Shown: piece by piece, positions 21,084 through 43,494 of the stretch
Layout: the number at the start of each line of letters is the position of its first letter
Numbering within the stretch: the first letter of the stretch is position 1
Source: Idiomarina aquatica
GTDB lineage: Bacteria; Pseudomonadota; Gammaproteobacteria; Enterobacterales; Alteromonadaceae
Length of the DNA stretch: 64,000 nt
Assembly (NCBI RefSeq): GCF_003987185.1
Contig: NZ_PIPS01000001.1
Location: 1,116,001 to 1,180,000 of the forward strand
Reading direction: 5' to 3'
Notes under the pieces: generated by a model
Database searches by the model: none
Told to the model about the DNA's origin: nothing
Seen by the model: the letters and a program-made list of their open reading frames with translations, nothing else
Position numbers and translations under genes: made by a program

Positions 21084-22029
21084 TTTAGTTAGTGGTGGCC
21101 AACACATCCATGCACCTGACGACCTTAACCGGTTGTTGCAGGAGATATACGATGAGGCCATGACCATCACCTCTGGCAAAGTAGCGGATTATATCCCTGC
21201 TTTGGCCGAGGTAAACCCTGACTATTGTGCGCTAACCCTCGCGACGTTGGATGGCGAAGTCTTTAATGTTGGCGATACTCAGCAGCCTTTTTCGATCCAG
21301 TCGGTGTCAAAAATCTTTGGTTTAATGCTAGCCATGGAACGACTCGGCGATGAACTGTGGCAGCGGGTAAAAATGGAACCTTCCGGCCAGGCCTTTAATT
21401 CCATCGTTCAGTTAGAGTGGGAGAAAGGCATCCCGCGTAATCCAATGATTAACGCAGGCGCCATTCTTGTCAGTGACGTTCTGGTGAGTCGTTATTCGGC
21501 CAGTAAAAATGCGGTTTTAAGCCTGGTACGCACGCTCTGCGGCAATGAATCGGTGCATGCAGACCATGAAGTACACCTATCGGAAAAAGCCCATGGGCAC
21601 CGCAACGCAGCATTAGCTCACTTGATGAAGAGCTTCGGCAATATCGAATCCGATGTTGATGAATTGCTGGATCATTATTTCTGGCAGTGTGCCTTAACGA
21701 TGACTTGTGAAAACCTGGCTCGCTCCTTTACGTTCTTGGCTAATGACGGCGTATGCCCCTTTTCTAAGAACAGCATTATGTCAAAGCGCGATTCCCAGCG
21801 CATTAACGCGCTGCTCTCAACCAGCGGCATGTATGACCAAAGCGGTGAGTTTGCGTTTACCGTAGGAGTCCCGGCGAAAAGTGGTGTCGGTGGCGGTATT
21901 GTTGCCGTGGTACCTGATTTTGGTGTCATTGCCGCCTGGAGCCCGCGACTGAACGAATACGGAAATAGTGCCCGCGGTATGTTTATGGTTCGTGAACTGG
22001 CCAACCGCCTGGGCCTGAGTGTGTATTAA
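21073..22029 (+). CDS. glsB: Glutaminase
   Basis: A 318-residue serine-dependent glutaminase (glutamine to glutamate plus ammonia) of the beta-lactamase-like family. The SxxK nucleophile motif is in FSIQSVSKIF near residue 75. NPMINAGAI (near 130) and KSGVGGGI (near 275) are other conserved active-site segments. The start is a TTG at 21073 overlapping the thioesterase gene, with GGAG seven bases upstream. Its end overlaps the convergent solute-binding protein gene by 4 nt. Confidence 0.95.
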   Translation: MTRDLVSGGQHIHAPDDLNRLLQEIYDEAMTITSGKVADYIPALAEVNPDYCALTLATLDGEVFNVGDTQQPFSIQSVSKIFGLMLAMERLGDELWQRVKMEPSGQAFNSIVQLEWEKGIPRNPMINAGAILVSDVLVSRYSASKNAVLSLVRTLCGNESVHADHEVHLSEKAHGHRNAALAHLMKSFGNIESDVDELLDHYFWQCALTMTCENLARSFTFLANDGVCPFSKNSIMSKRDSQRINALLSTSGMYDQSGEFAFTVGVPAKSGVGGGIVAVVPDFGVIAAWSPRLNEYGNSARGMFMVRELANRLGLSVY

Positions 22030-22805
22030 CGGCGGTACAGTTGAAACCGCTGCAGGTTAAAGCGCGCAAACAGGTGATTAAACTTCTCATCACGTGACAA
22101 CAACCGAACCAGTCGCTGTACTTCTTCAACGGATATGCCTTTGCCCGTCGCTACAACCACCCCGAGTTCGTACTCACTCTCGACACGATCTGAAATCAGT
22201 AATTGCTCGAGATAGTTAACCGAAGAATTTTTCAGAGCACTCAACAGTTCGTCATTAAGTACGGCAGCATCAATACGGCCGCCAAGCAGCATTCGTAAGT
22301 TGGTGATGCGGGAGTCGGACAGATAAATGGAATAACGTTTGGCAACCTCTTCGGAGTTCATCACGGTACCGCCAAAGAGATAATGATAGCCGCGCACACC
22401 GCCAAGCTTGAGCCCTTCGAGATTTTCAAAGAACGACTGATCCCTGCCAGCAACCTTCTTGGCCACTAAACGCTCAGAACCCCTTAGTAACGGAAATGTT
22501 GTGGCAACGTCCACTTGAGCGTTCTGCCAGCCCCAAAGTAATGACTCGAAAAAAATAACATCGCAACAGCCCTCGGCGGAAAGCGCCTGGTAACGGCCAT
22601 TGGGAGGAATCGCCTGAATGATGAACTCGTACTCATTTTGATTATCGTTAAGCAGATTAACCAGTTCCGTGGTGACATCGGTTTCGAGCGTACCAGAAAA
22701 AAACGGCGGAAAATCATAGGCCGCCACATACACCGGTTCGCGAGACAAGGCGTTTCCGGTAAACAGTGAACAAACGATTAATAACGACAGGATATATCGA
22801 TTCAC
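22026..22805 (-). CDS. Orphan periplasmic solute-binding protein (SBP_bac_3-like)
   Basis: A 259-residue exported protein. A signal peptide (about residues 1-21, NRYILSLLIVCSLFTGNALS) is followed by VYVAAYDFPPFF and a C-terminal lobe typical of family 3 amino-acid-binding proteins. No ABC transporter subunits adjoin it, so it may be a sensor or scavenger protein rather than a transport component. I place the start at the GTG at 22805. The frame stays open upstream into the hairpin array to 23096, but that part is the repeat flanking tuf and should not be coding. A promoter-like TTGCGC-16-TATTAT lies about 30 nt upstream, within the repeat edge. It is convergent with glsB. Confidence 0.75.
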   Translation of the reverse strand: MNRYILSLLIVCSLFTGNALSREPVYVAAYDFPPFFSGTLETDVTTELVNLLNDNQNEYEFIIQAIPPNGRYQALSAEGCCDVIFFESLLWGWQNAQVDVATTFPLLRGSERLVAKKVAGRDQSFFENLEGLKLGGVRGYHYLFGGTVMNSEEVAKRYSIYLSDSRITNLRMLLGGRIDAAVLNDELLSALKNSSVNYLEQLLISDRVESEYELGVVVATGKGISVEEVQRLVRLLSRDEKFNHLFARFNLQRFQLYRR

Positions 22806-22835
22806 GGCGTAACGTTGATTAACAAGGACGCAACC

Positions 22836-22863
22836 ATAATACCTAACACAACGCGAAGCGCAA
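22836..22863 (-). promoter_or_regulatory. Promoter-like element before the solute-binding protein
   Basis: The minus strand has TTGCGC, 16 nt, TATTAT, ending 31 nt before the GTG. It is the counterpart of the tRNA-Trp promoter found at the same place in the second copy of the tuf repeat. Confidence 0.5.
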
Positions 22864-23093
22864 GCGCCTTGGCACTCACTTCGTTCGCGCTTGGCCCTCG
22901 CTCCGCTCGGTTGCCGGGCACCGGCTTCGCCGGTTTGCTTGGCGCGGCCAACGGCCGCTTGCTTGACGCCTCGTGCTTCGCACTCGCTTGCTGTTAAAAA
23001 AAGCAAGTGCGCGCAGCGCACGCGCGGACAAGCCGCGTCAGCGGTGCCTGGCAAGCCGAAGGCGCCTGGCAAGTGAGCAACGCGAACGCCAGA
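22851..23093. repeat. Intergenic mini-palindrome array downstream of tufA
   Basis: A GC-rich non-coding stretch built of short perfect palindromes, mostly with 3-nt loops: GCCGG-GCA-CCGGC and CCGGC-TTC-GCCGG (22913-22933), GCGGCC-AAC-GGCCGC (22944-22958), GTGC-TTC-GCAC (22973-22983) and GTGCGC-GCA-GCGCAC (23007-23021). It fills most of the 358-nt gap between the solute-binding protein and tufA. No gene is supported here. Confidence 0.75.
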
Positions 23094-23096
23094 CAT

Positions 23097-23125
23097 AAAA
23101 AAACCCGGCCGAAGCCGGGTTTTTT
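23097..23125 (-). terminator. tufA terminator
   Basis: CCCGGC-CGAA-GCCGGG flanked by seven A and six T residues, so it can work on both strands. On the minus strand it ends the str operon 38 nt after the tufA stop. Between stop and terminator are two overlapping hairpins, CTTGCGCC-TCT-GGCGCAAG (23138-23156) and GCAAGC-GGTA-GCTTGC (23127-23142), which cannot form together. Confidence 0.92.
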
Positions 23126-23163
23126 AGCAAGCGGTAGCTTGCGCCTCTGGCGCAAGATACTGC

Positions 23164-39794: not shown

Positions 39795-39822
39795 ATTATA
39801 CCTAAGACTGCGCGAAGCGCAA
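39795..39822 (-). promoter_or_regulatory. Promoter of tRNA-Trp-secE-nusG
   Basis: The minus strand has TTGCGC, 16 nt, TATAAT (perfect -10), about 44 nt before tRNA-Trp. The -35 and spacer lie in the edge of the repeated tuf cassette. Confidence 0.75.
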
Positions 39823-40025
39823 CACTCACTTCGTTCGCGCCTGGCCCTCGCTGCGCTCGGTTGCTAGGCACCGGCTGCGCCGGTTTGCTTGGCGCGGCCA
39901 ACCGCCGCTTGCTTGGCGCCTCGTGCTTCGCACTCGCTTGCTGTTAAAAAAAGCAAGTGCGCGCAGCGCACGCGCGGACAAGCCGCGTCAGCGGTGCCTG
40001 GCAAGTGAGCAACGCGAACGCCAGA
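39807..40025. repeat. Intergenic mini-palindrome array downstream of tufB
   Basis: Second copy of the hairpin array seen after tufA. CCGGC-TGC-GCCGG, GTGC-TTC-GCAC and GTGCGC-GCA-GCGCAC are kept, while GCGGCC-AAC-GGCCGC is broken by one change (GGCCGC to CGCCGC). It fills most of the 346-nt gap between tRNA-Trp and tufB. No gene is supported. Confidence 0.75.
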
Positions 40026-40028
40026 CAT

Positions 40029-40059
40029 AAAAAAAACCCGGCCGAAGCCGGGTTTTTTT
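40029..40059 (-). terminator. tufB terminator
   Basis: CCCGGC-CGAA-GCCGGG flanked by eight A and seven T residues, the same hairpin as after tufA. It ends the tRNA-tufB transcript before the tRNA-Trp promoter. Confidence 0.92.
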
Positions 40060-40097
40060 AGCAAGCGGTAGCTTGCGCCTCTGGCGCAAGATACTGC

Positions 40098-41659: not shown

Positions 41660-41735
<76 letters not shown>

Positions 41736-41755
41736 ACCCCGGTTAGGTGGAGCGC

Positions 41756-41784
41756 ATTCTATGGTACTAATTTTGATAGTGCAA
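41756..41784 (-). promoter_or_regulatory. Promoter of the tRNA-Thr/Tyr/Gly/Thr-tufB operon
   Basis: The minus strand carries TTGCAC, a 17-nt spacer and TAGAAT, followed by a GC-rich GCGCTCC discriminator of the kind found at stringently controlled stable-RNA promoters. The first tRNA starts about 20 nt downstream of the -10. Confidence 0.85.
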
Positions 41785-41863
41785 TAGCTTTGCGCAAAAA
41801 AATTTATATTTTATGGTCAGTTGCTCAGTTTTTGACTTTTTCGCACAAAATCCCAGCAATTTT

Positions 41864-42139
41864 ATCGCTGCCGCGATGGCCGTTTGTGCCTCCGGCACGG
41901 CTGTTTATTGCTACGCAATGGCTGTTTATCGCCTTCGGCGATGGCTGTTTGTTCGCTCGCTTTGCTTGCGTACGGCCTTTTGAGCCTGCGGCGCGGGAAA
42001 ACATAAACACCCTCGCTTTGGGTTTTGCCGCCGCCCCAGGCGGCAAATAGCCGTAACCGCCGAAGGCAGGTTACAAACGGCCATCGCCGCAGGCGATAAA
42101 ATGCCGCCCGGAACGGGCAAACGGCCGACGCCGCAGGCG

Positions 42140-42140
<1 letters not shown>
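41864..42140. repeat. Composite mini-palindrome array downstream of purA
   Basis: The gap of about 400 nt between the first tRNA and purA is filled by short perfect palindromes: ATCGC-TGCC-GCGAT, GTGCC-TCC-GGCAC, ATTGC-TAC-GCAAT, ATCGCC-TTC-GGCGAT, TTTGCCGCC-GCCCCA-GGCGGCAAA, ATCGCC-GCA-GGCGAT, GCCCG-GAA-CGGGC and ACGCC-GCA-GGCGT. In the left half they are joined by GGCTGTTT-like linkers and in the right half by AAACGGCC, so the whole block is a large imperfect palindrome. The last hairpin touches the purA stop codon. No coding sequence is supported. Confidence 0.8.

Positions 42141-43494
<1,354 letters not shown>

Follow-up and report, generated by a model that had tools for sequence, protein, structure and literature searches.

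Rows of small hairpins stand behind the genes tufA, tufB and purA in a 64,000-nucleotide stretch of an Idiomarina genome (the window; positions 1116001-1180000 of contig C1 in the 2.97 Mb genome G000), and they raise the question of what this DNA is and how it came to lie there. We found that the hairpins vary in sequence and the linkers that join them stay constant, that such arrays are present or absent at corresponding sites of related species, and that in this genus every gene of the PF05635 family (23S rRNA intervening-sequence protein, S23) above the cut-off lies between hairpin arrays. We propose, with a probability of about 0.62, that the arrays behind tuf and purA belong to a family of mobile, intervening-sequence-like elements, as copies that lack its gene.

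Constant linkers and changing stems

The array 3' of tufA, of the type that we call class A, occupies positions 22867-23091 of the window; its borders are approximate, since more than one placement of the alignment is possible. Its left half carries forward-strand linkers within 22890-22967 (CTTGGC at 22890, TTGCCGGGC at 22911, TTGCTTGGC at 22935 and TTGCTTGAC at 22959), and its right half the inverted linker GCCTGGCAA on the reverse strand at 23046 and 23064 (span 23046-23072). The variable hairpins include ACCGGC-TTC-GCCGGT at 22920-22934, GCGGCC-AAC-GGCCGC at 22944-22958 and, in the right half, GTGCGC-GCA-GCGCAC at 23007-23021. Another class A array lies 3' of tufB (39809-40026, borders approximate). 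In both tuf arrays, hairpins of 4-6 bp with mostly 3-nt loops are separated by a spacer that reads TTGCNNGGC in the left half; the right half has the reverse complement of this spacer. The two are 86% identical over query positions 7-255; they are copies of each other and are thus not two independent cases. The class B array 3' of purA (41864-42140) follows the same plan with the linker GGCYGTTT (GGCTGTTT) instead, found at 41878, 41899, 41920 and 41943 on the left and as AAAYRGCC at 42045, 42075 and 42119 on the right.

An earlier note on this DNA had quoted three hairpins (at 22920-22934, 23007-23021 and 23138-23156), all of which are real and have counterparts at tufB. It had also placed all three arrays 3' of minus-strand genes and had described the purA array as alike in geometry and different in sequence, and both statements hold. 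The shared 3-nt-loop style that it described is confirmed with qualifications: loops within the arrays are mostly of this length, but the excess is mild and the third hairpin belongs to a different repeat. Its single class of element survives as one non-coding repeat class with several families, although the tuf arrays are mutual copies and the purA array has another linker.

In RNA folding, both regions fell below their dinucleotide shuffles (z -4.4 for 22846-23163 and z -7.0 for 41730-42145, the latter a span that extends beyond the purA array), with none of 100 shuffles equal in either case. Stems of at least 6 bp with a 3-nt loop numbered 236 in 464 kb, against 159-210 for other loop lengths from 0 to 12; the excess is weak, and we rejected the 3-nt loop alone as a signature. 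The distinguishing trait is the clustering of hairpins with a constant linker, rather than loop length. The class A linker-N-linker pattern matched 28 times in G000 and not once when read backwards, which rules out a random distribution. Furthermore, 58 of the 61 units between linkers from G000 and from its sister species I. aquatica (G005) were palindromic relative to shuffles (p < 0.05), compared with none of the 24 units from other genomes that served as control (85 in all). In 29 units of equal length, among them the one at 22920-22934, all six stem pairs vary on both sides and the linkers are constant. Pairing held in 94.8% of cells versus 66.1% after shuffling, and the covariation score was 0.732 (0.234 shuffled; at most 0.106 when slid). 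Pairing in the stem is therefore preserved although the paired bases change. Selection for compensatory changes and strand-switching repair would each yield the observed covariation.

Class A elements were found at 14 places in 560 kb of G000, a sample partly chosen for matches, with 5 of 23 rows dropped by eye as chance or coding and halves merged. By linker pattern, 4 of the 14 places carry both linker orientations in two clusters, and some others hold one half only. A complete copy was recognised by eye at about C1:1002710-1003000 and C1:1004103-1004376 (L203). Its left half reads linker-H1-linker-H2-linker-H3-linker-H4 and is followed by a centre with a palindrome like those of repetitive extragenic palindromic (REP) sequences; its right half reads H4'-H3'-H2'-H1' with inverted linkers, and corresponding hairpins differ in sequence. 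By eye, exact CTTGCTTGGC sites in class A arrays of G000 lie nearly all within C1:496-1156 kb (660 kb), with one more array on C2. In I. aquatica, a tRNA (tRNA-Arg by eye) lies between two inverted class A half-arrays (L201:780-1590; G005:C2:255579-256389).

A Pfam scan of the tufA array region gave zero matches, and an Rfam scan of the window at gathering score returned tRNAs only. The open reading frame (ORF) at 22026-23096 stays open across the tufA array because that frame meets no stop within the array, and gene-calling programs might wrongly lengthen the neighbouring gene here. The region is not protein-coding, as the earlier note had held, even though this frame runs through it.

PF05635 genes between the arrays

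Linker classes A, B and D (the last with GGTTTNGGC and variants as linker) were searched across 19 Idiomarina genomes, G000 included; a class E occurs in G018. Class A matches numbered 28 in G000, 31 in G005 and 0-2 in each of the other 17 genomes; G131 and G173, which are not among these 19, gave 10 each. Class D matches numbered 10 in G000, 2 in G005, 1 in G001 and none in the other 16, the backward control giving 2 across all 19. Judged by eye, about 6 of 8 class B matches in G000, 17 of 19 in G005 and 7 of 8 in G001 are palindromic, and those elsewhere look coding. Arrays of these three classes are thus carried by 3 of 19 genomes.

Above the cut-off, PF05635 yielded seven genes in 4 of the 19 genomes, and none in 14 control genomes. 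Hairpin arrays flank all seven on both sides, including all three in G000. In classes A (G000, G005) and B (G000, G001), which account for four of the genes, the layout is a left half, the PF05635 gene and an inverted right half. The three carriers of class A, B or D arrays all fall within the four PF05635 genomes (P = 0.004, uncorrected for relatedness), the fourth being G018 with class E. Proteins of one linker class are 70-76% identical and those of different classes 35-56%, so that the protein subtype tracks the linker class. The class B protein pair alone lies at different places, on opposite sides of murJ in G000 and G001 (gene names by eye). The inverted-repeat score of the flanks was 44.5-88 at six of the seven loci. 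The seventh (L211) scored 10.5 because an inserted element separates the gene from its right arm, and 155.5 when measured across the insertion; at the corresponding locus I. aquatica has the gene without the insertion. All seven genes lie beside protein genes and none in 23S rRNA (by eye). The tuf and purA copies in the window contain no PF05635 ORF. A sub-cut-off match in G010 (L214) resembles a diversity-generating retroelement and is without hairpin arrays by eye.

The association reaches beyond the genus. Across the phylum, PF05635 matched in 62 of 398 genomes, above the cut-off in 58. We compared 350-nt flanks at 52 of 57 over-cut-off loci (seven from Idiomarina; L248-L267 were picked by hand, mostly from the window's class), leaving out L231, L233, L235 and L243 as too short, as well as L250 and the sub-cut-off L214. 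Complementarity between a gene's own flanks exceeded that of outer flanks at 47 of the 52 loci (median 19 versus 10), and at 34 of 52 the own flanks ranked in the top 5% of swapped partners, swaps that include corresponding loci of related genomes. A score of at least 19 was reached by 29 of 52 PF05635 loci (23 of 45 outside Idiomarina) and by 1 of 364 ORFs of G000, a single-genome control; that sole ORF sits between two class B arrays. Among the flanks seen by eye (L228-L238 in part), inverted short tandem repeats enclose many PF05635 genes, such as GGCAGTA units in one flank with TACTGCC in the other. One locus, L261, lies inside a 23S rRNA gene (by eye). Other genes sit between what we take, by eye, to be cysD and cysN (L251, L252, L257, L258, L264) or nuoC and nuoD (L241, L267), in several genera and with different flanking repeats.

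The class A linker pattern itself occurs in 58 stretches of GTDB representative genomes, of which the three from I. aquatica are hairpin arrays. Among 68 units there, five were palindromic at p < 0.05 (three from I. aquatica and two marginal at p 0.046, with about three expected by chance), and the remaining stretches are mostly coding-repeat-like by eye. In a Verrucomicrobia metagenome-assembled genome (MAG; L138/L189) and a Comamonadaceae MAG (L191), the palindromes are offset from the linker and were missed by the unit test. By eye, palindromic units of the Verrucomicrobia MAG adjoin the linker TTGCTTGGC (L138, L189; L315-L323). PF05635 matches in the genomes of L138, L191, L155, L190 and L148 numbered 11, 0, 0, 0 and 1.

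Could the arrays have grown where they stand? Slippage and template switching from a seed palindrome might build such rows and keep their stems perfect, with PF05635 genes tolerating or attracting such DNA. A small palindrome, GCGCTTCGCGC, is indeed present at the tufB site of the array-less G017 and G003, local tandem amplification is seen in class D (L310), and strand-switching stem repair would produce covariation as well. However, growth in place leaves unexplained the one linker at 14 separate class A places, the two-half inverted layout at four of them, the common hairpin order (by eye) and the arrays beside all seven PF05635 genes. We consider it rather unlikely.

Filled and empty sites behind tuf and mdh

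Of 18 congeners, 16 have a legible tuf 3' end (G007 and G012 were without a match), and in 14 of these 16 neither a class A nor a class B array follows tuf. The tufA array of G000 is extra DNA relative to I. aquatica, which has none at tufA. At tufB, the left border is common to I. aquatica and G000, and beyond it I. aquatica has class B sequence, so that this site holds class A in G000, class B in G005 and a 17-nt segment in G017 and G011. In G001, class B arrays follow both tuf genes. Orthologous sites are both filled and empty, as for a non-autonomous mobile element resembling a miniature inverted-repeat transposable element. The tufB site of G011 carries AGCGCTTGGCG, which resembles the element ends; at this one locus it is suggestive of a target that resembles them.

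A similar picture was obtained 3' of mdh, where a class A element stands in G000 and a class D array in G001. In the other congeners a terminator or unrelated repeats were seen by eye, within the reach of the contigs (contig ends truncate G005 and G014). This site (L268-L286) looks like a hot spot of the genus, holding class A, class D or unrelated repeats according to species.

An array can also lie inside a gene. In G001, a class B array lies in frame inside a gene with an SRP54 GTPase match that is FlhF-like by eye, at L313:67-900 (G001:C1:162766-163599), where it is translated as four QTAVPEA repeats and more. Palindromic elements of Rickettsia likewise stand in frame in coding genes; the Idiomarina arrays differ from them in being multi-hairpin, in having linkers, in lying mostly between genes and in belonging to another genus.

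These observations bear on a role in the host, in which arrays would be selected at 3' ends to stabilise mRNA ends, to stop read-through or to bind gyrase behind highly transcribed genes. The three arrays of the window do sit 3' of tufA, tufB and purA, and tuf is a highly expressed gene. None of the 14 class A places lies in a divergent intergenic region, with gene orientation taken from a rough ORF caller; as divergent regions make up 19% of intergenic bases, P is only 0.056, and the 3'-end enrichment raised by the earlier note amounts to a lean. The array-free tuf ends of 14 of 16 congeners and of tufA in I. aquatica, the mdh ends with other sequence or a plain terminator, and the array within flhF all argue against such selection. 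A role at transcript ends or in supercoiling is unnecessary for explaining presence and absence between species, and we hold this account to be improbable.

Origin of the arrays and what it would mean

The earlier note had pointed to a REP-associated tyrosine transposase (RAYT) as a possible partner. Searching the whole of G000 for Y1_Tnp gave three matches: one RAYT-like gene with a DHMHFV motif (C1:530874) and two 77-aa frames beside a TnpB-like ORF (TnpB by eye). No class A, B or D array lies near the RAYT-like gene, and we rejected RAYT as partner of these classes; the family associated with the arrays is PF05635. Beside the RAYT-like gene lies a second palindrome family, CGAGGCTCCGCCTCG with CTACCTAC (L040:1856-3240; G000:C1:531229-532613), which may be the true partner repeat of that gene. 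A search for a joining enzyme that covered Y1_Tnp only, across the whole genome, found none; none of the three matches has array ends of its own.

REP-type repeats do occur in the region. Between the stop codon of tuf and the terminator stands the hairpin CTTGCGCC-TCT-GGCGCAAG at 23138-23156, with GTAG before it at 23134-23137. This is a REP-like repeat distinct from the arrays; in the tufA region the GTAG tag is confined to this hairpin. It forms a palindrome on the forward strand in the tufA 3' untranslated region (23134-23156) and has a counterpart in that of tufB (40068-40090, forward strand). The intrinsic terminators lie on the reverse strand at 23098-23125 for tufA (a 12-bp stem with a T run, present too in relatives without the array) and at 40030-40059 for tufB.

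That the arrays are themselves REPs, or bacterial interspersed mosaic elements (BIMEs), moved by RAYT is highly improbable: a RAYT-like gene is present, as are GTAG-tagged REPs (GTAGCTTGCGCC occurs 11 times in 464 kb) and, in the middle of certain class A elements, palindromes like them, but the RAYT-like gene has no class A, B or D array nearby, two of the three Y1_Tnp matches are the short frames beside the TnpB-like ORF, and in the arrays it is the linkers, not the stems, that are conserved. REPs and BIMEs share with the arrays dispersed palindromes, inverted pairs around a small gene and a mostly extragenic position, according to PMC2817692 and PMC3733652. They differ in that the array palindromes are variable (six of six stem pairs change) around a constant linker, that array units are bounded by TTGCNNGGC and have no GTAG/CGTC tag, and that the partner gene encodes a PF05635 protein, not a tyrosine transposase, with RAYT not flanked by array repeats.

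A closer likeness is found in the intervening sequences (IVSs) of 23S rRNA with an S23p ORF (Coxiella, Leptospira and others), in which terminal inverted repeats, pairing as a long stem, enclose a PF05635 gene. Heptameric repeats have been noted in the S23p IVS element of Coxiella in PMC4990558, and, on that description, they resemble the short-repeat flanks of PF05635 genes outside Idiomarina. The Idiomarina elements differ in being intergenic and not in rRNA, in having arms made of linker-separated hairpins and in having dispersed gene-less copies. The PDB chain closest in sequence to the PF05635 protein is 2gsc_A (XCC0516; E = 1.1e-16), described as a homopentamer of four-helix bundles (PMC4990558). 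PF05635 also resembles Avd/bAvd of diversity-generating retroelements, according to PMC10053308.

How might gene-less copies of such a family arise? The plainest full element, that of classes A and B, is a small PF05635 gene, encoding a four-helix bundle, between two inverted arms. In each arm, variable hairpins follow one another with the linker of their class between them, so that the two arms can fold together as a single long, branched stem. The gene of classes D and E lies between two arrays, each with both halves. The folded single strand, either RNA or lagging-strand DNA, may be the form that is recognised and copied. The S23 protein could act as a nucleic-acid chaperone, also in trans on gene-less copies, and a host or other enzyme would do the joining. 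Copies would persist where they are harmless, for example beyond terminators, and the two tuf arrays may have been kept alike by gene conversion along with tuf.

Several points weigh against a mobile element family of this kind. Transposition itself was not observed, and no clear target-site duplication was found in the tufA and tufB alignments, the borders of which are ambiguous. We know of no catalytic activity of PF05635. The three genes of classes D (G000, G001) and E (G018) have a two-half array on either side, and at two of these loci direct similarity of the flanks exceeds inverted similarity (105 versus 63.5; 168 versus 55). Plain descent accounts for the linker match of the class A and D protein pairs, which stand at corresponding loci of two species, and the array carriers may be related species. 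I. aquatica has class B arrays and no class B PF05635 gene, and next to its murJ and rpsT inverted class B arrays enclose a small NTP_transf_2 gene, not PF05635 (L306:628-921; G005:C13:79927-80220). In the wider set, 23 of 52 PF05635 loci score below 19, direct similarity equals or exceeds inverted similarity in 12 of 52, and all 364 control ORFs come from G000.

Beyond Idiomarina, we tentatively suggest, as a possibility that we hold with some doubt, that a single class of mobile element, with PF05635 (S23/IVP) genes as its cores, extends across Pseudomonadota, and that rRNA IVSs are merely those of its copies that landed in rRNA. Each lineage would have its own arm repeat, either heptamers or linker hairpins, the protein would recognise the folded arms, and gene-less copies of the tuf and purA type would spread in trans, as REPs relate to RAYTs, though here with no known transposase. 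A 2016 paper (PMC4990558) describes as unknown or unclear both what the S23/IVP protein does and where ribosomal IVSs come from. In the literature covered, which took in few subscription papers and no preprints, we found neither hairpin arrays nor intergenic repeat arms connected with PF05635 genes. If intergenic copies with a PF05635 gene and pairing arms are common, and if sister species differ in the gene-less relatives of these copies, harmless laboratory bacteria could serve to test mobility and recognition. If the proposal is true, many unexplained hairpin and heptamer arrays of bacteria would gain a common origin.
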